Below, in pieces: positions 43,088 to 64,000 of a stretch of DNA of 64,000 bases. Positions within the stretch are counted from its first letter, which is position 1. Each line of letters begins with the position of its first letter. The notes below the pieces were generated by a model that saw only the letters and a list, made by a program, of their open reading frames with translations, was not told the origin of the DNA and did no database searches. Both the position numbers and the translations under genes were made by a program. The DNA lies in NCBI RefSeq assembly GCF_000504285.1, contig NZ_KI632511.1, positions 989,372 through 1,053,371 of the forward strand, written 5' to 3'. The DNA comes from Actinospica robiniae DSM 44927. Its GTDB lineage: Bacteria > Actinomycetota > Actinomycetes > Streptomycetales > Catenulisporaceae.

Positions 43088-46000
43088 TCAGCCGGCGCCG
43101 CGGCAGGGGGTCGTGACGCTCGCGCCGGGCGCGGCTTGCGCGAGCTGCGCCGGGGGCTGCAGGTCGCCCACGGCTCCGCACAGCTGCGCGGTGAGGCCGG
43201 CGGCGCTGGTGGTCCAGGCGGCCCCGTCGCCGCCGTAGACGTCGGTGTAGATCTCCCGGCTCTGGTCGCTCGCCCGGGGCGGGCCGACCGCCAGGACGAC
43301 CTCGCCGACGGCCAGGTTCATCGCAAGCGCGTCGAACACGACGTACTGGCCGATCAGTACGGGGGCGGAGGGCTTGGATACGTCCCACATGCGCATCGCC
43401 CCGGTCACCTCGACCTCCGCGAGGAAACGCCCGTCGGCGCTGAAGCGCACGGTCACCGCGGCTGATCCGCCGCCGGGCAGCGGCGCGACCTGCGCCGCTC
43501 CGTCGGCCGTGGTGCGCCAGAGCCCGACGCCTCCGGCGGGCGTGGCGGCCGCGAGCAGTGAGGCGCCGGGGGCGAAGTCGAGCGCGGTGGCCGGGCCGAT
43601 CCGGGCGGCCGGGGCGGCGAGCACGGCGGGGTGGGCCGGGTCGCGCACGTCCCACAGGGCCGGGGGCTCGTCCCCGCCGGGCCCGCTCGGGGAGGCGGCG
43701 ATCGCGAGGCTCGCATCGTCGGCGCTGAAGGACATGTCCCCGCTCGGGACGTGCGCGAAGTGCACGAGCTGTGTGGGCCGGGCCGGGTCCGCGGTGCCGA
43801 TGATCCAGGCCGAGTCGAGGAACTCGTCCCTCGCTACGAGCAGGTCGCCGCGCGGGCTGAAGGTGACGTCGAGGCTGTCCGCGCCGCCGACGACCCCGCC
43901 GACTCCGCCGGTGACTGTGACCGCGCCGCGCCGTACCGGGCGGGCCGGGTCGGTGATGTCGAACAGAGTGACCGCGTCGATGGATCCCACGGCGAGCAGG
44001 TGCCCGCTGATCGCGACGTTCTCCCCTTCGCCATCCGGGTCGGGCAGCGTCGAGAGCTGCTGCAGATGCGCGGGGTCGCTGGCGTCCCACAGCCCGACGC
44101 CGTCGAACCCCGACTCGGCCAGCACGCTCCCGTCGGGGGAGAGGGCGAGGGAGGCGGCCGCGCCCAGCGCCTCCAGCGTCTGTGCGCCGGGCGTCGTCAG
44201 GTTCGCCACGTCCCAGATCTTCACCTCGTCGTCCGGGATGCGCGGATCCGCCGAGCTCTGCGCGAGCGCGACCAGCGTCCCGTCGGGGCTCAGCGCGAGA
44301 CCGAGGCTTGCGCCGGGGTCCGGCAGCGTCGTCGCCGGGCCGTCCGGATTCGCCAGATTCCAAACATTGACATCAGCGCCTTGGTCTGAGGTGGCGGTGA
44401 ACAGGTCGTTCCCGTCGCGCGAGAAGACCAGGGCATCGCCCTCGCCACCGCCTCCGTCACTCAGATCCAGCGTCGACTCGAGCTTCGGGGCGCCCCCGCC
44501 CGACACGTTCCACAGCCGCACCCCCTGATCCGCGCCCGTCGCGGCCAGCTCGCGCCCGTCCGGGCTGAAGGCGACCGCCCGCATCACTCCGGAGCCCGCC
44601 ATCCGCGCGACCGACCTCGGAGACGCCGGTGCGGACAGATCCCACAGGCTCGTGCCGCCGTCCTGATCGGCCGCCGCCAGCCTCCCGCCGTCAGGGCTGA
44701 AAGCCAGGCCCCAGACCGTCCCGCTCCCCGCGGACATCCTCGCCTCGGGAGCACTGCCGGAACCCGGCCACAGCAGGACCCTGCCATCAGATTCGCCCGC
44801 GGCGAGCAGCGACGCGTCCGGGCTGAAGGCGAGCGCGAGCACCGATCCGCCCGCGGTCGCCGGTTCGCGCGTGCGCACCGGCCGCGCCGGGTCGGCGATG
44901 TCCCACACCGCGACCGCGCCGACGGTGGTGCCGAGTGCGAGCTGCTCACCGTCGGCGCTGAGCGCCATCGCCGAGACACCCACGTCCGCCAGGCTCGCCA
45001 CGACCTCGTGCCCGGCGCGGCTCCACAGCTCCACCTTCCCGGCGAGGTCCATCGCGATCACCGTGTCGCTGACCTCCACGCCGGAGACCGCCGGCGCCGC
45101 GATGATCCCGGGCAGCGCGATACCGCCGATCAGCGCGTCGAACGCCTCCGCCGTCGGCGCGCTCTGATACGCCGCGACCGCCAACTGCTTGGCCATGTTC
45201 GGGTTCGAACCGGCCAGCGCCGCCGAGCGCGAGGCGAACTCGCGCGAGAACGCCGCCTGCTGCTGCGTGACCCCGTAATCGTGCTGCTGGCCCGCGATCA
45301 CCGCGGCGCTCGCCCCGAGCAGGCTCGCCGCCACCAGCGCCCCGATCAGACCCCTGCGACGGCGCCGCCGCCGCGCCGCGACCTGCCGGCTCTCCTCGAC
45401 GAACTCCCGCTCGGCCGCCCCGACCTCCGCCGGCCGCGCCCGCATCCACTCCAGCGCCGCCTGAACCTGCCCCGGCCCGAGCACCCTGGTCCGGTCGCGC
45501 CCGGCGCCCGCCCACGCCCGCCGCGCCGCGCGCACCTGCTCCTGCCAGGTGCGAAACTCCCGGTTGCGCTCGACCCACTCGGCCAGCCGCGGCCACGCCC
45601 GGATCAGCGCCTCGTGCGCGAGTTCGACCGTGTACGCGCCGGCCGGCTGACGGGTGGTCACCACCAGCCGCGAGGTCGACAGGCGCGCGAGCACCGGGCG
45701 CTCGGCCGCGCCGAACTGGTCGCTCTCGGCCACCCGCCGCGTATCCGGGGAACGCTCCCCGGCATCGAGCACCTCGCCCGGCCGCACCAACTGGATGAAG
45801 ATCCGCTCGAGCGCGGCCTCCTCCGCCTTGTCCGCCCACTCGAACAAGCTGCGCTCGGCGATCCCCGCGAGCGCACCGCCCACCCCGCCCAACGCGTGAT
45901 ACGCCGCCGCGGTCAGCTCCCCGCGCGACTGCTCCCGCCACAACTGCGCCAACGTGAACTCGAGCAGCGGCAGCCCGGCCGCGCCCGGCGGGGTCTCCTC

Positions 46001-47362
46001 GAGGATCCGCTCGAGCAGGCCGTCCGCGAACCGCACCCCGCCGAGCCCTTCGAGCGGATCGGCCGCCACCGCGCGCAGCTGATCGCGCGTCAGCGGCGGG
46101 ATCACCACGTGCGTCTCATCCCACGCCGCCGCGACGTGCGGAGCCGCCTCCAGGTGCCGCAGGAAGTCGATCCGGGCGACCACCACCGCCTGCACGCCGC
46201 GCGACCCGTCCGGACGCCGCGCCGTCAGCGCCCCGAGCAGCGCGTCCAGATGCCCGGCCGTCTCCGGCGCCTCGGCCAGCAGGCCTTCGAACTGATCGGC
46301 CACCAGCAGCAGCCGCGAGCCCTCGGGCCACCCGGCCAGCGCCCGGTCGACCGCGACCTCGAGCCCGCCCGGCGCCCCGAGCTGCTCGCTCAACTCCTGC
46401 CAGCGGCCGCGCCAGACCTGCTCGTCCCCGGGCTCCGGCCCGGCCGGCCCGAGCAGCGCCCAGGCGACCAGCTCCGGCGCGGAATAGCGCCGCCCGTGCG
46501 GGATCCGCGCGACGAGGTAACGCCCCGAATCCCGCAGCCGCGCCACCAGACCGGCGTTGACCAGCGAGGACTTGCCCACCCCGGACGCCCCCAGCACCGG
46601 CACGATCGCCGCGCTCTCCCGCTCGACCAGATCCACCAGCCGCGTCGTCTCCGCCTCCCGGCCGAAGAACACCGACGCGTCGCCCTCCGCGAACGCCGAC
46701 AGGTCCCGGTACGGGTTGCCGGCCACCAGCGCCGCGCGCAGATCCGGCCAGTCCCGCTCGACCGACTCGACCGTCAACGCGTACCCGGTGCGCAGGCCCG
46801 CGTCCGCCTCCACCGTCACCACGATCCCGACGACCGCGCCGAGCTCCTCGTCGAAGATCGGGCCGCCGCTGAACCCCTGCGCCAGCACGAACGCCGCGTC
46901 CCGGTCCGCGCGCAGCTGCAGCCACCCGGTGCCCTCGCGCCCCTCGACCACCCCGGTGCTCCACACCCCGGCGTCCTTCGCGCCCCCGCGCCCCACCGGG
47001 AACCCGAAAGCCCGCCACCGGTGCCCGGCCAGCTCCTCGACGGCCGACAGGCGCATCGGCATGATCCCCTCGGGCGGCGGTGAGGCCAGCTCGAGCACCG
47101 CGAGGTCCCCGCTCATGTCCGCCCCGATCGGCGTGCTCACCCGCACCCGCGCCGTCAGCGGCCCCGGCCGTCCCGCGAGCGGGAAGTCCACCGTGACCTC
47201 CGCGCCCGCCTCCACAGCCGCGTCTCCGCCGAGGCCCAGCACGTCCGCGACCACGTGCGAGCACGTCAGCAGAAAGCCCCCGGCGATCAGGAACGCCGCG
47301 CCCTCCGGGCGCCCGTCCTCGCCCAGGACGCGGGCGATCGCCCGCTCCCACCCCCGGCTCAT
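43088..47362 (-). CDS. Trypsin-like peptidase / STAND ATPase / WD40 protein
   Basis: A 1424-residue conflict-type protein. The N-terminal trypsin-like domain (about 1-225) has a complete triad: His36 (LTCSHVV), Asp86 (SGDLAVLEL) and Ser165 (QGFSGGPIF). A STAND/nSTAND1 NTPase follows with FFGREAETTRLV, Walker A GASGVGKSS (258-266) and Walker B LLLVADQFE (351-359), then a winged-helix/helical section (ELAHEALIRAWPRLAEWV). A transmembrane helix (671-690, after ARRRRRRR) precedes about fourteen WD40-like blades (FSPDGxxLAAA...VRLWDV), two propellers' worth. Related proteins are proposed counter-invader NLR-like sensors whose WD40 part detects a ligand and whose protease is the effector. ATG 47362 is 1 nt after the Trypco1 stop, so they are coupled. 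Confidence 0.9.
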   Translation of the reverse strand: MSRGWERAIARVLGEDGRPEGAAFLIAGGFLLTCSHVVADVLGLGGDAAVEAGAEVTVDFPLAGRPGPLTARVRVSTPIGADMSGDLAVLELASPPPEGIMPMRLSAVEELAGHRWRAFGFPVGRGGAKDAGVWSTGVVEGREGTGWLQLRADRDAAFVLAQGFSGGPIFDEELGAVVGIVVTVEADAGLRTGYALTVESVERDWPDLRAALVAGNPYRDLSAFAEGDASVFFGREAETTRLVDLVERESAAIVPVLGASGVGKSSLVNAGLVARLRDSGRYLVARIPHGRRYSAPELVAWALLGPAGPEPGDEQVWRGRWQELSEQLGAPGGLEVAVDRALAGWPEGSRLLLVADQFEGLLAEAPETAGHLDALLGALTARRPDGSRGVQAVVVARIDFLRHLEAAPHVAAAWDETHVVIPPLTRDQLRAVAADPLEGLGGVRFADGLLERILEETPPGAAGLPLLEFTLAQLWREQSRGELTAAAYHALGGVGGALAGIAERSLFEWADKAEEAALERIFIQLVRPGEVLDAGERSPDTRRVAESDQFGAAERPVLARLSTSRLVVTTRQPAGAYTVELAHEALIRAWPRLAEWVERNREFRTWQEQVRAARRAWAGAGRDRTRVLGPGQVQAALEWMRARPAEVGAAEREFVEESRQVAARRRRRRRGLIGALVAASLLGASAAVIAGQQHDYGVTQQQAAFSREFASRSAALAGSNPNMAKQLAVAAYQSAPTAEAFDALIGGIALPGIIAAPAVSGVEVSDTVIAMDLAGKVELWSRAGHEVVASLADVGVSAMALSADGEQLALGTTVGAVAVWDIADPARPVRTREPATAGGSVLALAFSPDASLLAAGESDGRVLLWPGSGSAPEARMSAGSGTVWGLAFSPDGGRLAAADQDGGTSLWDLSAPASPRSVARMAGSGVMRAVAFSPDGRELAATGADQGVRLWNVSGGGAPKLESTLDLSDGGGGEGDALVFSRDGNDLFTATSDQGADVNVWNLANPDGPATTLPDPGASLGLALSPDGTLVALAQSSADPRIPDDEVKIWDVANLTTPGAQTLEALGAAASLALSPDGSVLAESGFDGVGLWDASDPAHLQQLSTLPDPDGEGENVAISGHLLAVGSIDAVTLFDITDPARPVRRGAVTVTGGVGGVVGGADSLDVTFSPRGDLLVARDEFLDSAWIIGTADPARPTQLVHFAHVPSGDMSFSADDASLAIAASPSGPGGDEPPALWDVRDPAHPAVLAAPAARIGPATALDFAPGASLLAAATPAGGVGLWRTTADGAAQVAPLPGGGSAAVTVRFSADGRFLAEVEVTGAMRMWDVSKPSAPVLIGQYVVFDALAMNLAVGEVVLAVGPPRASDQSREIYTDVYGGDGAAWTTSAAGLTAQLCGAVGDLQPPAQLAQAAPGASVTTPCRGAG

Positions 47363-47363
47363 C

Positions 47364-47819
<456 letters not shown>

Positions 47820-53394: not shown

Positions 53395-53531
53395 TCAATC
53401 TACCGTGAGCGGCATTGAACCTCACCCCGTCCATCAACTGAGAACGCAGAGGCCCTGGCGGCGCGCCGACGATGGAAGTCGGCAGGTCGGCGGCGCGCCG
53501 ACGTGGTTCGCTACCCGAGCGGGGGCCGCTG

Positions 53532-55505
53532 GTGACGACGTATCAGAGCACGAGGTTCGATGCCGAGATCGACGGGCATCTGGAGTTCGCCCGGTCCGCC
53601 GTCCGCAGCGTGCAGCTTGGCGCGGAGGACCGGGCGGCGCTGGTGGAGCAGTTCGCGGCGGTCGAGCGGAGGCTGACCGACCGGACGCATCGGCTGGCCG
53701 TGATCGGCGAGTTCTCCAGTGGCAAGAGCACTTTCATCAACGCGTTGCTCGGCGAAGAGCTGCTGCCCACCGGGTTGGCGCCGACGACCGCGGTCGCGCT
53801 GCGGATTCAGGCCGGGCAGGGGCGCGAGCTCGCCTTCCGGCTGGACGGGGAGGCGCGCGGGCACGTGCTCAGCGAGCCGGGTGGGACGCGGTTGTCCGCG
53901 CGGGGGCGGGCCACCGCCCGTGCCCGGGCCCGGCTGCGGCAGGTCGCGCCCGGGAAGGTCGAGGGCCTGCGCTCGGCGCTGGGTCTGCTGTGCGCGGATC
54001 CTGAGATCGGCGGATCCGTCACCGAGCTGAGCCTGGCGCTGCCGGCTGCGACGCTCATCGACGAGTTGGTGGTCATCGACACTCCAGGGGCCAATGCCGA
54101 CGACGAGCACCATGTGACGGTCACCCGGGAGGTCTTGGCGAACGAGGCCGACGCCGCGGTGGTCGTGCTGTCGGCCAACACTCCCGTCTCCGACAGCCTG
54201 GTCACGTTTCTGCTGGACACCCTGGACTTCGACCTGCTCTCGCGCTGCGTCTTCGTCGTCTCGTGGATGGACTCGATCCCGTCGCCGGAACGCGACGACC
54301 TGCTGGTGCGGATCCGCCGGCGGCTCGAACGCAAGCTTTCCCTGCGGTCCGTCACCGTGCTGCCGGCCGCACCCGTGTGGGCGTTGCGCGCGGCGCAGGG
54401 CGAGGCGCTCAGTGCCGATGAGCGCGGCTGGGCCGATCAGTTCCCGTCGCTGGTCGAGACGCTGCATACGATCATGCGCCGGCAGCGTGCGCTCGCCTCC
54501 GCCTCGACGGTGCTTCGGCTGTTGGACGGCGCCTTGGCCGCGATGCAGGACCGGCTCCGGCAGCAGGCCGGGCAGCTCGCCGCCGAACAGACGGCGCTGG
54601 AGCGGCTGCCGATCCACGATGTGGCGGCTTTTCTGCGCACCGAGGCCATGCGGGGGCAAGCGACGCTCGAGGGCCTGGTCACGGACCTCGAATCGAGCAT
54701 GTCCCGGCGGATCTCGAGCGCGCGCGGCTCGCTGGATTCCTCGACCGACGACGCGCTGGACGCGGCCCGGAGCAAATCCGCCCTCGCCACGTGCATGCGC
54801 GAGACGATCCCCGGACTGGTCCAGAACGCCCTCGCCGGACTCGAGCGGACGATCGGCGCCGAGCTGTCCGCCGCGAGCGGCCGGGTCTCGTCCGCGGTGC
54901 TCGGCGGACTCGATCGCGCGACGGCGGAACAGTACCGGCAGTTCGCCGCGATCAGCGGTTCCGGCGTGGTCTCGGGACGCTTCAGCGCCTCGGCCAGCGT
55001 CAGTCTCGGGGCCGTCGCCGACCTGTCCGGCCTCGGCTCCGCGGTGGACGCGGTGACCTCGGATGACAATAAGCTGATGGGGGCCGGGATGGCGAGCGGC
55101 GCGCTCATCGGCACCGCGATCGCCCCGGTGCTCGGCACCGCGATCGGGGCGCTGTTCGGCGCGGCGATACGGATGTTCGGCAAGCCGGCCAAGCAGGTGC
55201 GCGAGCAGTACAAGGAGAACGTCGGCGACGCGGTGTACCGGGCGTTCCGGGACGTGCGCTCCGTCGCCGAGCGGGCCGTATCAGATTTCTCCGACGCCGG
55301 CCGCGCCGCGCTCGACTCGCGCGTCGCCGCCCTGAAGGCGGCGTACGGGCCGGTGATCGCCGAGGCGATGCGCCGGCATCAGGAGCGGACCCGGGCCGTG
55401 CAGACGGAGCAGGCGTCGCTGCGCACCGCCGCGGCCGCCGTCGGCGAACGCCGCTCGGCCATCCAGGCCACCCGCGAGGCAATCGCCGTGCAAGACGCGG
55501 CGTGA
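53532..55505 (+). CDS. Dynamin-like GTPase 1
   Basis: A 657-residue bacterial dynamin-like protein. G1/P-loop is VIGEFSSGKSTFINALLGEELLP (about 57-80), G2 Thr lies in GLAPTTAVAL, G3 is VVIDTPGANADD and G4 VVSWMDS. Long helical stalk segments follow (LRQQAGQLAAEQTALERL and others). A hydrophobic hairpin GAGMASGALIGTAIAPVLGTAIGALFGAAIRMF (about 513-545) should act as membrane paddle. It is the first gene of a tandem dynamin pair; the upstream side was hit by an ISAs1 insertion 74 nt before GTG 53532, which may have removed or replaced the promoter. Roles of such pairs include membrane fusion, cytokinesis and phage-infection tolerance. Confidence 0.9.
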   Translation: MTTYQSTRFDAEIDGHLEFARSAVRSVQLGAEDRAALVEQFAAVERRLTDRTHRLAVIGEFSSGKSTFINALLGEELLPTGLAPTTAVALRIQAGQGRELAFRLDGEARGHVLSEPGGTRLSARGRATARARARLRQVAPGKVEGLRSALGLLCADPEIGGSVTELSLALPAATLIDELVVIDTPGANADDEHHVTVTREVLANEADAAVVVLSANTPVSDSLVTFLLDTLDFDLLSRCVFVVSWMDSIPSPERDDLLVRIRRRLERKLSLRSVTVLPAAPVWALRAAQGEALSADERGWADQFPSLVETLHTIMRRQRALASASTVLRLLDGALAAMQDRLRQQAGQLAAEQTALERLPIHDVAAFLRTEAMRGQATLEGLVTDLESSMSRRISSARGSLDSSTDDALDAARSKSALATCMRETIPGLVQNALAGLERTIGAELSAASGRVSSAVLGGLDRATAEQYRQFAAISGSGVVSGRFSASASVSLGAVADLSGLGSAVDAVTSDDNKLMGAGMASGALIGTAIAPVLGTAIGALFGAAIRMFGKPAKQVREQYKENVGDAVYRAFRDVRSVAERAVSDFSDAGRAALDSRVAALKAAYGPVIAEAMRRHQERTRAVQTEQASLRTAAAAVGERRSAIQATREAIAVQDAA

Positions 55506-55564
55506 GGACCCGCGCCGGGCAAGCCGGCGCACCGCCACCCTCGATATCCCGAATGGAGCGAACG

Positions 55565-57532
55565 ATGCCCGATGCTCTGGGCCAGGACCCGCTGAAGACC
55601 TTCAAAGGCATGCGGCTCGAACTCGCCGCGCTGATCGGCCGGCTGAGGTCGGTGGCGGACGAGCTGGAGAGCGCCGAGTTGCGCAACGCCGCGGCCGCGC
55701 TCGAACAGCGCGTCAACGAGGACGTGTTCCGCGTCATGGTGCTCGGCGAATTCAACTGCGGCAAGAGCACGTTGGTGAACGCGCTGCTCGGCGAGCGCGT
55801 TCTGCCCGCCTTCGCGCGGCCGTGCACCGCCGTGATCTGCGAGGTCGGCTACGGCCAGGAACGCCGTGCCGTGCTCTACCCCCGCGATGGCAGCCCGTCG
55901 TTCGAGTTGCCGATCGAGGAGTTGGCCGAGCACATCACGATCGACGACGAGGAGGCCGAGACGCTGCAGAACCGGTACAAGCTCGCCGAGATCACCTGGC
56001 CGCTCCCGCTGTGCGCGGACGGGGTGCAGCTCACCGACTCCCCCGGGACCAACGAGGACAGCATCCGGGAGGCGGTGACCAACGGCTATCTGGCTCGGGC
56101 GGACGCCGTCGTCTATGTGGTCTCGGCACTCGCGCCCTTCGGCAAGAGCGAGCGGACCTATCTGGAGAACCACGTCCTGCCGCTGGGCCACAGCGACATC
56201 TTCTTCCTGGTCACCCGGATCGACCAGGCGCCCGCCGAAGAACGCGCCGACGTGATCGAGGTCGTGCGCAAGCGGGTCGGCAGGGTCGGCGAGGAGCTGC
56301 AGGGGCGCGACGGGACCCGGCTCTACCCGGTCGTCGGAAGCCTGCTGTTCCCGGTCGACGGAAAGGGCGCCCTCGAGGGACGTCTGGCGCAGGACGCCGA
56401 GATGGTGCAGCGCTCCGGGCTCGCCGAATTCGAGGAGTCGCTGCGCGGGTTCCTGACCTCGAAGAAGGGGCGCGTCAAGCTCGCCGGGCCGAGCAGCGAT
56501 CTGCGCACCCGCCTGTGGAAGGCCAGGGCGCTGGTCCACGACCGCGAGGCGCTCTACGACCAGGATCTCGCGGGCATCGTGACCAGGTACGACGCCCAGA
56601 AGATCCGGCTGGACCTGCTCGATGACAAGCGGGCGGTCATTCTCGGCAAGCTCGAGAACGACATCAGGAGCCTGGAGCGGACGGCCGAGGACGCCTTCCG
56701 CCGCCGGCTGGCCGAACTGGCCGAGAAGTGCCCCGCGTGGGCCGAGGAGGCCGAGACACAGGGCCGGATCGAGTCGGTCTTCAAGGCGAAGAGCCAGGGT
56801 GAGGCGCTGGCCGCGGAGCTGACCACGATCCTGACCGACCGGCTCCGCGCCGAACTGCTGCGGTGGCAGTCCGGCGAACTCCTGCCGATGCTCACCGGGC
56901 AGTTGGGGCCGGTCGAGCAGGAGCTTGCCGCCGCCGTGGCCGACTTCCTCGAGGTGGTCCAGCAGGTGCGGGCCGCGATCACCGGCGGTGAGGCGGGCCC
57001 GGCCGTGGAGTTCGCCGAGACCCTCGCGGAGACCGGCTCGGCGTTCGGAGACGCATTGCCCTCCCAGGCGGGGAGGACCGCGGCGATGTCGCTGAGCGCC
57101 ATCGTGCTCACGCAGCTGGGCGTGCTGGTCGCCGCGGCCCTGCTCTCCTTCACGCCGCTCGGGCTTTTCACCGCCATGTTCGGCGCCGGCGCTATGCAAC
57201 GCGCGTTCCACGTCGACAGGATCAACAGCCAGGTGCGGCGCCAGGTCGGCGAGGCCTACGCGGCTCAGATCCGGGAGCTGTTGCCGGACGCGGCGCGTAC
57301 CGCGGGCGTGGGCGTCGGCGACCGTTTGCGGGCGTGGGCGCGCACGACCGGCGAGGGTCTGGCCGCCCAGACCGCGACGGTGCGCGAGCAGGTGGAGGCG
57401 ACGATCGAGGACAAGAAGGCCGGCGAGGCGCGGGTGGCCGGGCAGCGGGAGCGGATGCGCAGGCTCCTGGCCGAGGTCGACGCGATCGAGTTCGAGCGCG
57501 GCGGCCTGGCGGAGCGGATCAACCGGTCCTGA
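55565..57532 (+). CDS. Dynamin-like GTPase 2
   Basis: A 655-residue partner of the preceding gene with P-loop VLGEFNCGKSTLVNALLGERVLP, switch Thr in ARPCTAVIC, G3 LTDSPGTNEDS and G4 VTRIDQA. Coiled-coil-forming stalk helices follow, and AMSLSAIVLTQLGVLVAAALLSFTPLGLFTAMFGAGAM (about 511-548) is the membrane-inserting segment. The start ATG 55565 has GGAG 7 nt away; GTG 55502 would overlap the first dynamin stop as GTGA and could couple the two. In known systems paired dynamins co-assemble. A strong hairpin lies after its stop. Confidence 0.9.
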   Translation: MPDALGQDPLKTFKGMRLELAALIGRLRSVADELESAELRNAAAALEQRVNEDVFRVMVLGEFNCGKSTLVNALLGERVLPAFARPCTAVICEVGYGQERRAVLYPRDGSPSFELPIEELAEHITIDDEEAETLQNRYKLAEITWPLPLCADGVQLTDSPGTNEDSIREAVTNGYLARADAVVYVVSALAPFGKSERTYLENHVLPLGHSDIFFLVTRIDQAPAEERADVIEVVRKRVGRVGEELQGRDGTRLYPVVGSLLFPVDGKGALEGRLAQDAEMVQRSGLAEFEESLRGFLTSKKGRVKLAGPSSDLRTRLWKARALVHDREALYDQDLAGIVTRYDAQKIRLDLLDDKRAVILGKLENDIRSLERTAEDAFRRRLAELAEKCPAWAEEAETQGRIESVFKAKSQGEALAAELTTILTDRLRAELLRWQSGELLPMLTGQLGPVEQELAAAVADFLEVVQQVRAAITGGEAGPAVEFAETLAETGSAFGDALPSQAGRTAAMSLSAIVLTQLGVLVAAALLSFTPLGLFTAMFGAGAMQRAFHVDRINSQVRRQVGEAYAAQIRELLPDAARTAGVGVGDRLRAWARTTGEGLAAQTATVREQVEATIEDKKAGEARVAGQRERMRRLLAEVDAIEFERGGLAERINRS

Positions 57533-57537
57533 GGCCG

Positions 57538-57582
57538 GGCGGGCGGCCCGGTCAGTGCGTTTCGCCGGCCGGGCCGCCCGCC
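57538..57582. terminator. Bidirectional hairpin terminator, 14-bp stem
   Basis: Perfect arms at 57538-57551 and 57569-57582 (GGCGGGCGGCCCGG / CCGGGCCGCCCGCC) with a 17-nt loop. It lies just after the second dynamin stop and overlaps the last codons of the convergent cyclase-like gene. Confidence 0.8.
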
Positions 57583-58727
57583 GCTTCCTCCTCGTGCGGA
57601 TCGGGCTTTGCGACCGCCGTGCCCTCGGCACGAGTGGGCGAGGTGGGAATGCTGTGGTGGTAGATGCTGCCCTGGCCGACGGTCATCGCGACGCCGTTGT
57701 CCTTCACCACGGTCAGCTGGTTGATCTGCCCGATCCCGGTTCCCGGCGCCGGCGCGGCCCGCTCGTCGAGCAGTTTGCGCAGGTCCGCTGCGGCTTCGGG
57801 GTGGTCATGAAGCAGGACGCCCAACTCCCCGGTCCACGGCGCGAGCAGCGCGCCGCGCGCGGCCTCGGGATCCTTGGCCCCCTCGACGAGTCGGGCGTCG
57901 GTCTCCAGCCGCTGCTCGGCCGCGCGGGCCCGATCGGCCCCGGCCCGGTGGAACACCTTGCCGAACAGGCGTTTCACGGCCGACCAGGAGTCCGTGGCCA
58001 TCGCCGTGACCATTGTGGTGGCCCCGGCGGCGGCCAGCGCGTCCAGTTCCTTCAAGGTGAGCACAGCCCCTCCTTGCTCGATTCGCTCGACGTGCCGGGC
58101 TTGCTGGACCGGCCGGGTCTCCCGGCCACTCGGCGCCGAGGCCGCGAATGCGGGTACGAACAGCCAGGCCTGACCCGTGAACTCCTTCACCGCGATGCTC
58201 CGCGGTTCGAACTCCTCGGGGAAGACTTCGAGGGAGCCGTACCGCACGGCGTCTTCGTAGTAGTGGCCTGACACGACGAGCGCCAGCGGCGTGTCGGCGG
58301 GCGCGCCGCGCAGCGCCTCGCGCAGTTCGCCGGCGTCGAGCAGCCGGGCGAGCACCTCGAGTTGCGGGCCGTAGACCGTGTCGCCCTCGGCCACGTCCAC
58401 CTCGCCGGCGTGCAGCGCCGCGCGGACTCGGATCCGCAGCGGGGAGTGCTCGCCGACCGTGCGGTTGTGCCGGCGCAGCCGGAGCGCGAGGTCGCGGATC
58501 ACCGCGGTGAGCAGGTCGGCTTTCGGCGCCCCGGGCGGTGCGACGATGCGCAGTCCGTCGCCGAGGTCCCCGAAGACGCATGCGCCCGGGGCGATCGCGT
58601 TGCGCTCGAGCGATGCCTCGGCCGACTCTCTCAGTACTCTGCGGATTTCGGTGAGTGGCGCCCGGCCGCGGCCGGAGGACTTCTCGATGTCCACGGCGAG
58701 CAGGGCCCGGTATTCGAGTCTTGACAA
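57552..58727 (-). CDS. Class III nucleotide cyclase-like protein with C-terminal amyloid-like motif
   Basis: A 391-residue protein. The N-terminal half is a cyclase homology domain: RALLAVDIEKSS (first metal Asp12), CVFGDLGDGLRIVAP (second acidic site), RIRVRAALHAGEV (core strand), YGPQLEVLARLLDA (equivalent of the N-L-A-x-R-L segment, Arg kept, Asn lost). The lost Asn makes true cyclase activity doubtful. A middle helical part has LAAAGATTMVTAMATDSWSAVKRLFG. Near the C-terminus (about 335-358) lies INQLTVVKDNGVAMTVGQGSIYHH, like the amyloid signalling motifs of actinobacteria; the STAND protein encoded 10 nt upstream bears a similar motif at its N-terminus. The arrangement is that of an effector recruited by an NLR-like sensor. 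Confidence 0.82.
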   Translation of the reverse strand: MSRLEYRALLAVDIEKSSGRGRAPLTEIRRVLRESAEASLERNAIAPGACVFGDLGDGLRIVAPPGAPKADLLTAVIRDLALRLRRHNRTVGEHSPLRIRVRAALHAGEVDVAEGDTVYGPQLEVLARLLDAGELREALRGAPADTPLALVVSGHYYEDAVRYGSLEVFPEEFEPRSIAVKEFTGQAWLFVPAFAASAPSGRETRPVQQARHVERIEQGGAVLTLKELDALAAAGATTMVTAMATDSWSAVKRLFGKVFHRAGADRARAAEQRLETDARLVEGAKDPEAARGALLAPWTGELGVLLHDHPEAAADLRKLLDERAAPAPGTGIGQINQLTVVKDNGVAMTVGQGSIYHHSIPTSPTRAEGTAVAKPDPHEEEAAGGPAGETH

Positions 58728-58737
58728 ATCTGCTCCT

Positions 58738-61700
58738 TCAGCGTGCCCAGGGGTTGTCGAAGTCGCCGAGTGCCACGATGCGCCGCTCGGCCTCGCGCAG
58801 TTCCTCTTCGCCTTCCGCGCGCTGCGCCTCGGTCAGTGCGCGCAGGATCGCCAGCGCCTCCATGCCGACTGCCTTGGCATCGGCCATCCGACTGTCGTTG
58901 TACGTGCGCAGGCACAGGCGGGAGAGCACGAGGCCGAGCGATGCCCGGTACCGGTCGGGGTCGGCCGAGGCCAGCGCGCGGAACTGTTCGGCGGTGCTCT
59001 CGGCCAGCGCGAGTGCCTTCGGGAGCTGGTTCAGTTCGAGCAGCTCATCGCAGACCTCGTTCAGCTTGAACGCACAGCGCAGCGGCGCGGACGTGGTACG
59101 AAGCCCGGCCGCCTGGCCGAAGACCTTCGCTGCCTGCTCGAGGACTGCGACCGCCTCCGTGACGGCATCACGATCGCCCGTCTGTACGAGCACGCAGCCC
59201 AGCACGTACAGCCCCACGCCGAGTTCCTCCGCGTGCGCCGCGGGGTTGGCCTTGGCGAGAATCGCGCACAGCTCGACCGACTCGCGCAGCACGGCGAGCG
59301 CCTTGTCCGTCTCGTCGATGCACGCGAGGTGGATGCCGTGATTGTGCAACGCGGCGGCAAGGTGCGGCGCATGGCCCTGATTGTCTCGGGCGAGGCCGCG
59401 CAGGATCTCGACCGCCCGGCCGCTGGCCTCCGCGGCCTCGCGGTCCCGGCCTCTTTTGGACAGCGTCTCGGCGAGGCTCAGCAGCGCCATCGCGGAGCCC
59501 GGCAGCCGCGCCGCGGCGTCCGCGTCGCGCGGGTCGGGGCCGGCCTTCAGCGCCTCCCGCGCGACTGCCTCGGCCTGCTCGGTCTTGCCCGAGGCCGCGA
59601 GCGCGTCGGCCAGGTTGTGCAGCGCCAGCACGAAAAGCTGCTGATGCGCGCCTGGATTCTCGGCTCGCAGGCCCCTGAGCAGGTCCGCGCTCCGGGTCTG
59701 GGTCTGCACGGACTGGCAGGCCCGGCCCATCTTCAGCTCGAGGGCGCCGAGGTTGTTCAACGCGCCGGCGAGTTGCGACAGGTGGGCCGCTGGAGCGTGC
59801 GCGAACAGCCGCTCGTACATCTCGACGGCGCCGTCCAGAGCGGCATGCGCCCGGTCTCGCCGCCCGAGCTGTTGCAGGCAGGTCCCGAGATTCGTCAGGT
59901 AGCGGGCCAGGTCCGCGGTGTACGCGGCGGGGTTCGCCTCGGCCAGGCGCCGGCCGGCCGCCACCGCGTCCTCGAACAGGCCCAGCGCCTCGGCGGCCTC
60001 GCCGAGGTTCGCCAGGCGCAGCCCCAGGTTGCTCAGCGAGATCGCCCACAGCGCTCGGTACGCCGTCGGATTCTGCGCGGCGAGCGAGCGCAGGAGCTCC
60101 TCGGCCTCCCGCGTCGGCGCGAGGGCCTCGTGCTGCCTGCCGATCCGCTCGAAGGCGTTGCCGAGCCCGTTGAGCGCCGCGGCCAGCCACGGCAGGTGCT
60201 CGGCCGGATTCTCCGCGGCGAGCTCGCGCAGGATCGCGGCCGCCTGCCCGGCCGAGGCGAGCGAGGCGGCCGGGTGGCCGGCTTCGAATTCGATGACGCT
60301 CCGGTTGCCGAGCGCGGCGGCGAGCAGCGCGCGGTGGGCTCCGGCCGCCACCGCGGGAAGCGCGCGCAGGCTGGAGGCCGCTTCGTCCGCGGCGGCGAGG
60401 GCCTGGACGTTGCGGCCCAGCCTGTTGAGCACGCCGCTGAGGTTGCTCGAGGCCATCGCGAGGTCGGCGAGGTACTGTGCCGGCTTCGCGGCGGCCAGTT
60501 CCCGATAGAGCCGGACCGATTCGGCCAGCGGGGCGACGGCCGCCTCCCCGCCGCCCGCCTCGTGCAGCGCCGAGCCGAGATGGCAGAGCACGAAGGCGAG
60601 GGAGGCCCGGCGCTCGGGCCGCAGCCGTCCGGCCCGGGCACGCGCGATCGGCACGGCCTGCGCGAAGCGCTCCGCGGCCAGGGCGGGGCGTCCGGCGTGT
60701 CCGAGCCGGATGCCGCTGTCGCAGAGCCACTCGACGCGGTCTTCGTCGCTCAGCCGCCCGGCGAGGTGATGACCGGCCAGCCGGTCGGTCACCTCCGCCG
60801 CGCCGGAGTCGAGGTCGGTGTGCCGGCCGGCCGGCAGGGCCTGGTGCACGCTGGCCAGCGCGGCGAACAGCTCCGGTGTGAGGGGCGTGGCCCGGTCACC
60901 GTCGCGGCCGATCGCGGCGAGGGCGCTGAGCGCGGCGCTCCCCCCGGACAGAAACCGCCGGGGCTGGAGAACGGCCCACGGGTAGAGCACCTTCGGGCCG
61001 ACGCCGGGCCAGCGTGAGGCCGCGGCCGCGAGGAAGACCAGGGCCCGCGCCGTCCACGCCGGAGCGTCGCCCGCGTCGGTCCCGTCGAGCGGAAGCAGCA
61101 CGTCTACCGCCGCCTTCGCGGCCCATGCGTACTCCGGATAGGCGACGCCGTCGCCGGTCAGCGTGAGCGCGAGGAAGTCCTCGGTCAGCCGGTCCGGGTA
61201 TAAGGGTTCGAGAAAGGTCTCGAGGCCCGGTTCGGCCGACGGGTAGCAGACCGCGTGGTCGTCGAGCAGCTGCGGCGCGGCGAGCGGTAACGCCTGCTTG
61301 GCCAGCACGGCCGCAGCCTGTCTACGGTCGGCCGGACCGGTCAGCGCGGCTGTGAACACGACACGGTTCATCACCGGCGCCGGGGTGAAGTACGTACGCT
61401 GTTGCGGGTTGAGCTCGTGCACCGGGTCGCCGTACTGCTGTTCCCAGTGCTTGTACTCGCGCCGCAGCAGGTACCGGGTCAGGTCGGCCATCGCGGCGCC
61501 GCGCGGCGCTGATGCTCCCCTGGCCGCCGCGTCGACCGCGACCAGCGCGGCCATGTGCACGGCGAGGGTCAGGCCGAACTCGGGCAGGCCCAGATCCGAG
61601 GGCGGTTCGAGGGTGTGCGCGTCCGCCAGCTCGTATTTCGCGGCGAAGGCCGTGCGAGCGGCGACGAACATCTCCTGCCGCGGGTCCGGGGCGCCGGCTG

Positions 61701-62397
61701 CGGGCCCTTGAGCGAGGGGGCCGAGCCGCTGAACCGAGAACGCGCCGCCGAGCTCCTCCACCTGGCTCTCGATCCCCTGCCAGTCGCCGTGCGACCGCGC
61801 CAGCAGCACGACCCTGGTGCGCACGCCGACCTGGCGGAGCACGGTGTCGTTCAACAGGTGCTTGAGATGGCTCGACGGCCACTCGTTGGCGTAGTCGACC
61901 AGCAGCAGCACCCCGGCGCAGCCGTCGAGCCGCAGGTCTGTCGCCTCTTCCGGCGGACGCATGTGCGGCCCCTGAACCGCTGTCAGGACCTTCCATCCCG
62001 CAGCGGAGGACTCGGCGGCGAGCTCCGCGGACAGGCGGCTCTTGCCCTGGCCGCCTTCGCCGTGCAGCCAACGGACCGAAAGCCGCGGCTCGCCATCCCG
62101 CCACTCCCGCAGTTGCTGGAGCTCACTGGACCGGCCGGTGAAGCCGACCACCGCGTACCGGGCGTTGAGCATGCGGCTGGCGACCGCCCGGAAGAACGTC
62201 GTGCCCGGGTCCCGCGGCCGGCGCCAACCCTCCAGCCAGTAGACCGGCACGAGGTCGCTGAAGACGTGGATGTTCCCCACGCCGACTTGGAGGGAGTGGC
62301 CGCCCGTGCTGTAGACGTGCTGGGTGACGGAGATGTGCCGCGTGGCGGTCAGGTCGATCGGCGGATCCTGCTCGTCGTCACCGGGCTGTTGCGGCAT
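58738..62397 (-). CDS. STAND NTPase with TPR repeats (NLR-like sensor)
   Basis: A 1219-residue cytoplasmic protein. Residues about 22-46 (ISVTQHVYSTGGHSLQVGV then GNIHVF) form a short motif that parallels the C-terminal motif of the downstream cyclase-like protein and includes an LQVG core as in RHIM-type amyloids. The STAND NTPase has FTGRSSELQQLREW, Walker A HGEGGQGKSRL, Walker B VLLLVDYANEW and sensor VVLLARSHGDW. From about 540 to the end are around ten degenerate 44-residue TPR units (NPAAYTADLARYLTNLGTCLQQLGRRDRAHAAL). ATG 62397 has GAGGAGCGAG upstream. Order with neighbours (Crp-like, STAND, cyclase-like) suggests one operon. Confidence 0.88.
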   Translation of the reverse strand: MPQQPGDDEQDPPIDLTATRHISVTQHVYSTGGHSLQVGVGNIHVFSDLVPVYWLEGWRRPRDPGTTFFRAVASRMLNARYAVVGFTGRSSELQQLREWRDGEPRLSVRWLHGEGGQGKSRLSAELAAESSAAGWKVLTAVQGPHMRPPEEATDLRLDGCAGVLLLVDYANEWPSSHLKHLLNDTVLRQVGVRTRVVLLARSHGDWQGIESQVEELGGAFSVQRLGPLAQGPAAGAPDPRQEMFVAARTAFAAKYELADAHTLEPPSDLGLPEFGLTLAVHMAALVAVDAAARGASAPRGAAMADLTRYLLRREYKHWEQQYGDPVHELNPQQRTYFTPAPVMNRVVFTAALTGPADRRQAAAVLAKQALPLAAPQLLDDHAVCYPSAEPGLETFLEPLYPDRLTEDFLALTLTGDGVAYPEYAWAAKAAVDVLLPLDGTDAGDAPAWTARALVFLAAAASRWPGVGPKVLYPWAVLQPRRFLSGGSAALSALAAIGRDGDRATPLTPELFAALASVHQALPAGRHTDLDSGAAEVTDRLAGHHLAGRLSDEDRVEWLCDSGIRLGHAGRPALAAERFAQAVPIARARAGRLRPERRASLAFVLCHLGSALHEAGGGEAAVAPLAESVRLYRELAAAKPAQYLADLAMASSNLSGVLNRLGRNVQALAAADEAASSLRALPAVAAGAHRALLAAALGNRSVIEFEAGHPAASLASAGQAAAILRELAAENPAEHLPWLAAALNGLGNAFERIGRQHEALAPTREAEELLRSLAAQNPTAYRALWAISLSNLGLRLANLGEAAEALGLFEDAVAAGRRLAEANPAAYTADLARYLTNLGTCLQQLGRRDRAHAALDGAVEMYERLFAHAPAAHLSQLAGALNNLGALELKMGRACQSVQTQTRSADLLRGLRAENPGAHQQLFVLALHNLADALAASGKTEQAEAVAREALKAGPDPRDADAAARLPGSAMALLSLAETLSKRGRDREAAEASGRAVEILRGLARDNQGHAPHLAAALHNHGIHLACIDETDKALAVLRESVELCAILAKANPAAHAEELGVGLYVLGCVLVQTGDRDAVTEAVAVLEQAAKVFGQAAGLRTTSAPLRCAFKLNEVCDELLELNQLPKALALAESTAEQFRALASADPDRYRASLGLVLSRLCLRTYNDSRMADAKAVGMEALAILRALTEAQRAEGEEELREAERRIVALGDFDNPWAR

Positions 62398-62545
62398 CTC
62401 GCTCCTCGGGTGGGGCGCTCGGGCGGGAGGGCTTGGGGATGGATCGGCTGGCTGCTGGTGTCAGTCTGCGCCGCGTCGGCCCGCGAGATCCCCTCGCAGC
62501 ACGGGATCGTCCCGGATCGCCCGCCGCGGCCGCGGTCGCAGCGGG

Positions 62546-63280
62546 TCACGGGTAGGCGATCGCGTAGAGCCGGTGGACGTCCAGGACCCTGATGGAGCGG
62601 TAGCCGGTGGAGACCACGCCCTCGTCGCGCAGTGCCCGCAGGACCTTGTGCACCGTCGGTTCCGCGGCGCCGGCGAGCGTCGCGATCTCCGGCTGGGTGA
62701 GCGGCCAGGTCACCAGGATCCCCTGGCCCGACTCGACTCCGTACGTGACAGCGGTCTGATGAAGCACCCTGGCCAGCCGGGTCCGCACGTCGCAGCCGGT
62801 GAACTCGACGCGCCGCCGGTTGGCGTTGCGGAGCTTCGCGACGACCGAGGTGTTGATGATGTGCGCTATCTGCGGATCGCGCCGCGTGCAGTCGAGGAAT
62901 TCGGCCCGGGAGACGACGCGGGCCACCAGGGCGCCGCACGTGGTCACGGTCGCGGATCTCGGCCCGCCGTCCACCGCGGAGAGCTCACCGACCAGATCGC
63001 CGCCCATCCGGACCGCGAGCAGCGCGTCCCGGCCGTCCTGGGTCAGGGCCGTGGCCTTGACCACGCCGTCGATGAGGATCATGACGAATGTGGTCTCCTC
63101 CCCCTCCCTGATCAGCACGCGGCCCGCCGCCGGATACTGCGCCAGCGAGCCGAGCGAGAGCAATCGGGCACGCGCGGGGGGACCGAGACGTCCGAGCACG
63201 CTCGCCTCGGGCCAGGCCAGATCGCCGCGCTCACGGTTCCTGGCGCGTTCTGCGGGGGTGCCCGCCGTGAGATCCACCAT
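62546..63280 (-). CDS. Crp/Fnr-family regulator with cNMP-binding domain
   Basis: A regulator of about 244 residues (ATG 63280; GTG 63379 would add 33). The cyclic-nucleotide-binding roll includes VLIREGEETTFVMILIDGVVKATALTQDG and the phosphate-binding cassette GELSAVDGGPRSATV, a good match to the G-E-x-A-...-P-R-S/T-A consensus needed to bind cAMP or cGMP. The HTH is at the C-terminus (LTQPEIATLAGAAEPTVHKVLRALRDEGVV). It precedes the STAND gene by 148 nt on the same strand and is divergent from another cyclase-like gene, so it could sense a product of, or control, this cluster. Confidence 0.9.
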   Translation of the reverse strand: MVDLTAGTPAERARNRERGDLAWPEASVLGRLGPPARARLLSLGSLAQYPAAGRVLIREGEETTFVMILIDGVVKATALTQDGRDALLAVRMGGDLVGELSAVDGGPRSATVTTCGALVARVVSRAEFLDCTRRDPQIAHIINTSVVAKLRNANRRRVEFTGCDVRTRLARVLHQTAVTYGVESGQGILVTWPLTQPEIATLAGAAEPTVHKVLRALRDEGVVSTGYRSIRVLDVHRLYAIAYP

Positions 63281-63557
63281 TCTCACCAGCCGCCTTCCGA
63301 CCGGCGCCCACACGCCGTGTTCGTCCGGATACCCGGGAACATTGTGCCCCGATCCCGGCCCTCGCGTATCAGGATTCACCTAACCGACGGGGAGCCGGGC
63401 CGCGCCGAGCGCCTGAAACGCTCCGAACACCTCGCAGAGCCGCCGGATCCCGTATTGCGACGGCGTGGCCCGGCGCGCGCCGCGGGAGAGTCGAACCGTG
63501 GCACACGCGGCAGGAGGGGAGCGCCTGGCTCCCGATCGCTCGGTACGGAGGGGGAGA

Positions 63558-64000
63558 ATGATTTTGCCCGAGAGCGAACCGGGGGTCAGGCGCCTGTGCG
63601 TCGCGGTCTGCGGGCGGCGCGGCCTGCTGGCCTCGGCCTGCCTCGCCGGGGGATACGACCGCTTCTATGTCTTCCCGGCCCCGGGCGGCGACGGCGAGGT
63701 GGGGATCGCCCCGCCGGGGATCGACGAGGCCGGGTTCGCGGCCGGGCTCATCACAACCCTGCGGACGGCGATCGCGGCCGACCCGGCCGCCGCTCCGACC
63801 CGGCTCGCCCTGCACGTCGGAATCGTGCGCGTGCGCGACGACCGCTTTGTCGGGTCCGCCGTCGATCGCGTCCTCGACCTGGTGCGCGGCGAGGCGCCGC
63901 CCGGACCGGGGCGGCTCGGGGCGTGCGCCGTGCTGGCGGCGGTCACCGAATCGCTGTTCGGCGACCTGCTCGGCGAGGGCTGGTCGTCGGTAGGCTGGCA
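63558..64000 (+). CDS. Cyclase homology domain protein, 5' part
   Basis: The frame begins MILPESEPGVRRLCVAVCG (ATG 63558 after GGAGGGGGAGA) and is open to the window edge, giving 147 codons. RLALHVGIVRVRDDRFVGSAVDRVLDLVRG and VTESLFGDLLGEGW correspond to the second half of the class III cyclase-like fold, as in the protein at 57552-58727, but the N-terminal metal-binding Asp of that fold is missing (RLCVAVCGRRGLLA), suggesting a non-catalytic or binding role. It is divergent from the Crp-like regulator. The C-terminus, where an amyloid-like motif could be, lies outside. Confidence 0.65.
   Translation, partial: MILPESEPGVRRLCVAVCGRRGLLASACLAGGYDRFYVFPAPGGDGEVGIAPPGIDEAGFAAGLITTLRTAIAADPAAAPTRLALHVGIVRVRDDRFVGSAVDRVLDLVRGEAPPGPGRLGACAVLAAVTESLFGDLLGEGWSSVGW

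Follow-up and report, generated by a model that had tools for sequence, protein, structure and literature searches.

What is the role of a Crp-like transcription regulator whose gene sits between two genes for proteins that resemble nucleotide cyclases, each of which has lost catalytic residues? This question is posed by a 64,000-nt stretch of the Actinospica robiniae DSM 44927 genome (9.9 Mb, one contig), spanning positions 989,372 to 1,053,371 of contig NZ_KI632511.1 and hereafter called the window. On the minus strand, reading from position 63379, lie the gene for a Crp/Fnr-family regulator (Crp; 62546 to 63379), a 3.66-kb gene (58738 to 62397) for a STAND/NLR-like NTPase of 1219 amino acids with TPR repeats, and the gene for a cyclase-like protein (CLP1; 57552 to 58727). 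The gaps are 148 nt between the Crp and STAND genes and 10 nt between the STAND and CLP1 genes. A second cyclase-like protein, CLP2, is encoded on the plus strand from position 63558, divergently from Crp. We consider it somewhat probable that these genes form a circuit of the cyclic-nucleotide type, wherein Crp controls CLP2 via a palindrome between their genes, CLP1 provides the effector arm and CLP2 is a non-catalytic partner. Sequence comparison establishes the elements on which this reading draws, namely the composition of the gene set, the loss of residues, the recurrence of the set, the conserved palindrome and the selection acting on CLP2-type genes.

An initial annotation of positions 62546 to 64000 had described a regulator between two cyclase-like genes, and this observation was confirmed in part. 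CLP2 is indeed divergent from Crp. The other cyclase-like gene, which had been placed in the operon of Crp, is on the same strand, but it lies outside the annotated segment, and the STAND/TPR gene intervenes. The palindrome, the STAND gene as a member of the set and the recurrence in other genomes were not mentioned there.

The pairing of Crp with a CLP recurs in related bacteria. We fetched 28 neighbourhoods from the same family through CLP1, and 30 from the same class through a CLP2 profile that matched 29 of 394 genomes, the host genome included, with at most eight candidates scored per genome (individual loci are denoted by L numbers). A Crp gene is found in 25 of the 28 family and 23 of the 30 class neighbourhoods, all of which had been fetched through CLPs. 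In both sets together, 56 of 72 CLP genes have a Crp gene within ~1.3 kb, a count in which near-identical loci are counted apart and CLP1 of the window is scored as a miss since the STAND gene intervenes. Because the neighbourhoods had been found through CLPs, we also tested the association starting from Crp. Of 197 class genomes, 188 contain a Crp match at E 1e-10, and we examined 67 flanks, comprising 32 loci returned by the Crp searches and 35 picked by hand from the match listing. A CLP gene lies within 1.5 kb of 20 of the 39 Crps that most resemble the window protein (over 110 bits, its own match excluded), compared with 6 of 27 others and, among those at or below 100 bits, 2 of 21. Relatives of CLP1 are present in 13 of the 14 family genomes, including the host, and a scan of genome contigs with CLP2 gave one locus, in Catenulispora pinistramenti (L064). 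Among viral contigs, no relatives of CLP2 or of the CLP1 clade were found. In other actinobacteria the Crp-CLP2 pair alone seems to occupy a stable chromosomal place. Six loci from one actinobacterial family (L095, L101, L105 and L135-L137) have, by eye, similar Crp neighbours with or without a CLP2-type gene; CLP2 therefore seems to be gained or lost at a fixed place.

By its domain content and cassette residues, the regulator is a member of the Crp/Fnr group, and cyclic-nucleotide binding is predicted. It exceeds the cut-offs for the Pfam families cNMP_binding (E 8.2e-16) and HTH_Crp_2 (E 3.6e-14), and its phosphate-binding cassette, GELSAVDGGPRSATV, retains the Glu and the Arg-Ser pair found in E. 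coli CRP, as expected from the earlier description of this cassette as intact. The protein is 277 amino acids long when read from the first GTG, and the true start may be later, for example at the ATG at 63280. Just 5′ of the likely start, at 63340 to 63347, is the sequence CATTGTGC, which by eye is common to L038-L040 and L049-L050, is absent from L036, and could be a promoter element or coding. The recognition helix is AAEPTVHK, compared with CSRETVGR in E. coli CRP. There are three Crp matches in the host genome, two of which sit with CLPs.

We also considered whether the residue equivalent to S128 of CRP could identify the ligand. It is Asn in the window Crp, in L036-L040, in L045 and in the first Crp of both L049 and L050; many loci of the class sample, L095-L107 among them, have Thr. 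In the seven cases associated with the Pycsar protein PycTM, this residue is Asp five times (L044, L046, L048 and the second Crp of L049 and of L050), Asn once (L045) and Thr once (L052). The PDB entry 3d0s, which we take to be the cAMP-binding CRP of M. tuberculosis, also carries Asn at this position, and so Asn is not diagnostic of the ligand. The same residue reads uracil in PycTIR, as described in a portion of PMC11224242.

Completing CLP2 from the flanking sequence, as the initial annotation had recommended, places its end at 64073, 73 nt past the window edge, for a protein of 171 amino acids. The protein retains the DG of the second acidic site. Automatic alignments left its first strand unaligned, and a hand alignment (RRLCVAVC to EYRALLAVD) puts Cys18 at the position of the first metal-binding Asp, which the initial annotation had reported as lost. 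Thus, of the residues expected of an active class III cyclase, CLP2 lacks the catalytic Asn and Arg and, by this hand alignment, the first Asp.

Despite these losses, profile comparison indicates that CLP2 is homologous to the class III cyclase family. The CLP2 and CLP1 profiles align by hhalign with a probability of 97.2% (E 4.5e-11), and a 25-member profile that includes CLP2-type proteins finds cyclases as its first five PDB matches (3mr7, E 2.2e-6). A hidden Markov model (HMM) built only from CLP1 proteins places four of seven CLP2s above the inclusion threshold and the other three below it. The CLP2 profile alone found no cyclase in the PDB, and the CLP2 structure model (pLDDT 51.3) has no clear fold, with Foldseek giving a PII-like protein as best match (E 0.029) and the class III adenylyl cyclase Ma1120 of Mycobacterium avium at E 0.067. 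The initial annotation had held that placement outside the cyclase superfamily would undo its reading. CLP2 is linked to CLP1 by profile comparison, but its own profile finds no cyclase in the PDB and its model is too poor to judge. None of the 25 CLP members has a Pfam match at E 0.01, and NCBIfam gave one weak, irrelevant match.

Members of the CLP family can be ordered by the extent of their decay. Some, such as those of L044, L048 and L054, are complete (Asp, Asp, Asn and Arg). A second group, which includes CLP1 of the window, L036-L042, L099, L111, L113 and L114, has both metal sites and has lost Asn. In the third, both the first Asp and Asn are lost, with the second acidic site kept in the window CLP2 and L095-L097 and also lost in L101 and L103-L107. 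In a phylogenetic tree, the window CLP2 groups with other CLP2s (support 100/99), and these join the decayed Crp-partner CLPs of other families less surely (91/92) and on long branches. The ratio of nonsynonymous to synonymous substitution rates (dN/dS), estimated by a simple counting method, is 0.21-0.56 for six pairs of CLP2 and CLP2-like genes, 0.18-0.37 for three CLP1 pairs and 0.12 for one Crp pair. The low values show that the decayed copies are maintained by purifying selection.

Between the Crp and CLP2 genes lies a palindrome, CCCGTATTGCGACGGC (63449 to 63464, plus strand), whose counterparts are kept at the Crp-CLP junction of related loci and which, from this conservation, we infer to be the Crp operator. 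Alignment of Crp/CLP2 spacers from related loci reveals CCCGTATTGCGACGG-type palindromes in the seven spacers displayed. The window copy has one mismatch to the 16-mer CCCGTAYTNNNACGGG, and the consensus is CCCGT-N6-ACGGG, equal in arm length and spacer to the E. coli CRP site, TGTGA-N6-TCACA. That CRP-type site was itself sought in the Crp/CLP2 spacer and rejected, with at most six of ten letters matched. The core CCRTAYTNNNACGG has 22 matches in 914,909 bases of loci and one in the reversed sequences. These represent 20 distinct sites, the window and L002 being the same site and L113 being matched on both strands. All 20 are beside a Crp or CLP gene: 18 are at a Crp-CLP junction, one is upstream of Crp (L045) and one (L117) precedes a CLP whose fetched piece contains no Crp. 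In the 30 class loci, which had not been used to find the motif, CCGT-N6-ACGG is present upstream of 15 of 23 Crp-adjacent CLPs, compared with 2 of 10 other CLPs and 117 of 4000 random windows. One further locus (L100) carries a one-letter variant, and most loci with a site encode the recognition helix AEPTVHK or AEPTVFK. Of 49 sites of CCCGTAYTNNNACGGG in the 197 genomes, eight are no more than 60 nt from the point where a Crp match with a CLP behind it ends (3′). In the gap between the Crp and STAND genes, positions 62490 to 62505 match with two mismatches; the window holds six such matches against 3.00 expected, and we do not claim this one as a site.

If CLP2 is a decayed partner, is CLP1 an enzyme? 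Residues 1-205 (58113 to 58727, minus strand) form a class III cyclase-like domain that retains both metal-binding Asp residues (D13 and D57) as well as R128; the position of the catalytic Asn is occupied by E124, in agreement with the earlier observation of two acidic sites and no Asn. A profile of nine CLP1-family sequences finds Ma1120 first in the PDB (E 6.2e-6), with other class III cyclases following weakly. The AlphaFold model of CLP1 is of low confidence (pLDDT 59.7, pTM 0.57); both proteins were modelled as single chains from two-row alignments of the window and L064 sequences. Its top Foldseek match is nevertheless Ma1120 (4wp9, E 1.6e-7, probability 1.00). By profile and by this model, CLP1 is thus a member of the class III cyclase superfamily, and the outcome that would have undone the initial annotation did not occur for this protein. 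Pfam PF00211 does not reach CLP1, and a profile built from eight CLPs of the complete type matches cyclases with a best E of 2.8e-5. Ma1120 has Ala164 at the Asn position, keeps Arg and is active, and its A164N mutation abolishes activity, according to part of PMC4215837. Because this enzyme is active without Asn, CLP1 cannot be called dead on the missing Asn: the initial annotation was correct about the absence, but as a sign of inactivity it is weaker than was implied.

CLP1 extends beyond this domain. Residues 206-339 (57711 to 58112) form a helical-looking domain that has a paralogue in the host genome (L005, E 2.4e-9), is encoded as a separate gene, CLP1C, beside CLP1 in L036-L041, and may, we infer, resemble the described BELL effector domain. 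In L005 (1369-2892; ~2.746 Mb of the genome), this domain stands alone, the next gene encodes a hydrophobic stretch, and by eye FRGxxQIQQGG is present in both. The C-terminal tail of CLP1 (57555 to 57710) possibly carries an amyloid-type signalling motif. In L036 and L038-L041, 0-7 of 1000 shuffles score as well as the match between CLP1 and CLP1C tails, although equally good scores are reached by 3 to 18 of the 673 other gene ends compared, a set that includes relatives. The window tail was compared with seven relatives' tails, of which the best was L038 CLP1C (0 of 1000 shuffles as good), and the other six gave 13 to 713.

The STAND protein matches TPR_12 (E 5.5e-18) and, weakly and below cut-off, AAA_16 (E 0.016) and nSTAND_NTPase5 (E 0.03), with a Walker A sequence, GEGGQGKS, read by eye. 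It has relatives in three other family genomes, one of which (L040) lies next to Crp, CLP2 and CLP1, though the gene order is not that of the window. In L242 (2023-6789; genome G003), a STAND relative faces a small gene, and by eye a similar GAQGP-x-A-x-AYV motif occurs at both ends; these genes are a possible amyloid-type pair.

PycTM genes lie beside a CLP gene in 7 of the 28 family neighbourhoods, six recognized by a custom HMM and L052 by Pfam. In L044 and L052, PycTM is beside both Crp and CLP and is above the Pfam cut-off. In 2 of the 30 class neighbourhoods, PycTM is some kilobases away. L044 (7806-10058; the same place as L004) is in the host genome itself, at ~1.813-1.815 Mb, and holds a Crp-PycTM-CLP set whose CLP has all four catalytic residues. 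PADLOC matches its PycTM and not its CLP, which reaches PF00211 at E 0.092 only, and the locus looks like an unrecognized Pycsar-type system.

The circuit that we favour would operate as follows. Crp would bind the CCCGT-N6-ACGGG site in the spacer that separates the Crp and CLP2 genes and thereby control CLP2, and perhaps also its own operon, Crp-STAND-CLP1. CLP2, a putative decayed class III cyclase, would be kept by selection in a non-catalytic role beside Crp; binding a nucleotide, or partnering Crp or CLP1, would be the likeliest. CLP1, with its metal sites and Arg, its further domain and its tail, would be the enzyme or effector arm, and the STAND/NLR-like receptor encoded just ahead of it would activate it. 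If CLP1 is active, its cyclic nucleotide would be the natural Crp ligand, closing the loop. In those relatives that combine PycTM with the same parts, this combination points to a use in defence or conflict. A broader proposal, which we advance tentatively and regard as possible rather than probable, is that a dead cyclase serving as the non-enzymatic partner of Crp, with its own operator, is a widespread unannotated actinobacterial pair, and that in Catenulisporaceae-like bacteria it is connected to an NLR-like receptor and to another cyclase, which may be active, as a cyclic-nucleotide immune circuit that counts a transcription factor among its receptors.

Several observations weigh against this circuit. 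On the Crp side, 19 of the 39 window-like regulators have no CLP nearby. Of the 15 class loci positive for the palindrome, seven share one identical site and come from one genus-level group, leaving eight distinct site sequences in all; 8 of the 23 Crp-adjacent CLPs have no site, among them those of L097, L102, L115 and L120, which encode the same recognition helix. A single palindrome in the window is not unusual, with one found and 2.66 expected in 64 kb, and the evidence is its conserved place. Nor is the 16-mer enriched: CCCGTAYTNNNACGGG occurs at 49 sites in the 197 genomes, and the reversed control gave ~93 (hand sum). The host genome has 16 against 14 in the control. A genome-wide regulon was thus rejected, and control by Crp, if any, would be local. 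CLP1 lacks, by eye, the usual Lys base contact, so that its substrate, if any, cannot be guessed, and without both Asn and this Lys it may be inactive. The host has a canonical class III cyclase at 9047244, its sole PF00211 match, which could feed Crp instead. STAND relatives in L242 and L243 have no CLP or Crp in the fetched pieces and therefore also work elsewhere, and the match of the window CLP1 tail to the STAND N terminus does not reach significance, 149 of 1000 shuffles scoring as well. Finally, only 7 of the 28 family neighbourhoods hold PycTM.

How do other explanations fare against the same evidence? Instead of an operator, the palindrome might be a hairpin in the RNA where Crp and CLP meet, governing translation or termination between the two genes. 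When Crp and CLP are in tandem, the site extends over the final Crp codons, which favours a hairpin and also counts against an operator, as does the folding of 40-nt RNAs from L111, L113, L036 and L101, for which only 5, 2, 8 and 11 of 200 shuffles, respectively, are as good. However, RNAs from the divergent loci fold no better than their shuffles (97 of 200 for the window, 87 for L038 and 177 for L049), the window site is upstream of CLP2 between divergent genes, and the asymmetric YT points to the CLP in divergent loci and the opposite way in tandem loci, as expected of a DNA site. The absence of better folding in the divergent loci and the flip in orientation favour a DNA site, and we judge the hairpin improbable. 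The initial annotation had offered a heteromeric cyclase, a cyclase with a binder, or sensors derived from cyclases, an interpretation that is supported in part. In the first, CLP1 would supply the metal site and CLP2 the rest, with Crp reading the product. CLP1 and CLP2 are direct neighbours in L036-L040, and Asn is lost in all nine family CLP1s that have CLP2 in the same piece and kept in 14 of 21 that do not, as if tasks had been divided, although nine of the 14 are near-identical, some fetched pieces are incomplete and the correlation comes from about two clades. For many Crp-CLP2-like pairs the piece that was fetched contains no CLP1, and CLP2 lacks the Asn and Arg due from the second half, so that a mixed site would be poorer than that of a CLP1 homodimer, which keeps Arg. 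The canonical heteromer is thus the least supported of the three options and has, in our estimate, a low probability; a cyclase plus a binder, or a sensor derived from a cyclase, fits better.

A device for sensing and transcription, in which both CLPs are inactive nucleotide-binding sensors and the Crp ligand comes from elsewhere, for example from the cyclase at 9047244, would accommodate the varying degrees to which CLPs that partner Crp have lost catalytic residues, the single PF00211 match in the genome and the inactive cyclic-nucleotide cyclase domains reported for conflict systems in sections of PMC7159879. CLP1 nevertheless keeps both metal-binding Asp residues and Arg like the active Ma1120 (as characterized in part of PMC4215837), and we find this device rather unlikely. 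We likewise think it unlikely that the locus is a Pycsar-type anti-phage system in which STAND-CLP1 has replaced the effector and CLP1 makes cUMP or cCMP on infection. The prediction gains from the PycTM genes in relatives, one of them in the same genome, from the Asn that reads uracil in PycTIR (per the portion of PMC11224242 noted above) and from a match between Crp and the PADLOC PycTIR model (E 1e-12). But this match is limited to the nucleotide-binding part, which is common to all Crps, and 3d0s, a cAMP-binding CRP, has the same Asn. A Pycsar locus is recognized by a PycC match with an adjacent PycTM or PycTIR; by Pfam and PADLOC the window set has no PycTM and no TIR part, and PADLOC is blank for CLP1, CLP2 and the L044 CLP. 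That unrelated genes merely happen to lie together in a gene-dense island, with transposases and other conflict-type genes nearby, is very improbable given the recurrence over several families and the conserved palindrome, arguments that weigh for Crp-CLP2 and less for the STAND and dynamin-like genes. We therefore return to the circuit in which Crp controls CLP2 as the reading to which we give most credence.

The dynamin-like genes are two GTPase genes (53472 to 57532, plus strand) that converge on CLP1, with Dynamin_N matches (E 1.4e-24 and 6.3e-25) and LeoA-type PADLOC matches; their membership of the same system is uncertain. Dynamin genes are also beside Crp and CLP in L052 and L119. Past CLP2 (L002, 3672-8226) are a SUKH-3 immunity gene and a long RHS-like gene (RHS named by eye) in a polymorphic-toxin layout. 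At window positions 43088 to 47401, a 1437-amino-acid protein combines a trypsin-like domain, nSTAND1 and WD40 repeats, and is a further conflict-type STAND protein in the region.

Several known systems resemble parts of this set. As in Pycsar, a class III cyclase relative is beside a protein with a cyclic-mononucleotide domain, and some homologous loci contain PycTM; here, however, the receptor is a DNA-binding Crp, and there are two divergent cyclase relatives, one of which is dead by sequence. The Pycsar receptors described in part of PMC11224242 act as effectors, arresting growth or killing the cell. Ma1120 is the nearest solved relative of CLP1 by profile and fold, and both keep the metal-binding Asp residues and Arg and lack Asn, whereas CLP1 has Glu at that position, a further domain and a tail. 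Crp shares its domain order and cyclic-nucleotide cassette with E. coli CRP and 3d0s, and differs from the former in its helix, in its predicted site and in showing no sign of a genome-wide regulon. STAND conflict systems (Kaur et al. 2020, 2021) and the NLR-BELL systems of bacterial amyloid signalling (BASS) likewise pair a STAND gene with an effector-like protein that has an additional domain and a short tail. Excerpts from PMC7159879, PMC8195603 and PMC7889193 report cyclic-nucleotide cyclase domains, several of them inactive, and CRP-like factors in STAND-type conflict systems, and the CLP1/CLP1C tails resemble those of the NLR-BELL amyloid signalosomes described in the same part of PMC7889193. 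A Crp with two cyclase relatives and a shared DNA site is not described in those excerpts, and, although BASS pairs have one short motif at both the NLR N terminus and the effector C terminus, the match between the window CLP1 tail and STAND head is not significant. BrxR/WYL proteins, putative ligand-sensing regulators about half of which are co-localized with defence systems according to part of PMC9122601, are likewise a regulator family of phage-defence islands, but as a protein family they are unrelated to Crp. In the literature searched, which mostly excluded subscription papers and preprints, we found no published description of the Crp-CLP pairing.

Because similar sets recur in many related bacteria, our findings suggest an unannotated signalling circuit that may in part be defensive. 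The palindrome makes this idea directly testable by a simple DNA-binding assay. If the circuit is real, CLP2 would clearly exemplify a dead enzyme that is retained as a regulatory partner and belongs to a family without a Pfam match at E 0.01. Cyclic-mononucleotide signalling in conflict systems would also gain a transcriptional branch, through a Crp that has its own DNA site and lies beside cyclase relatives.

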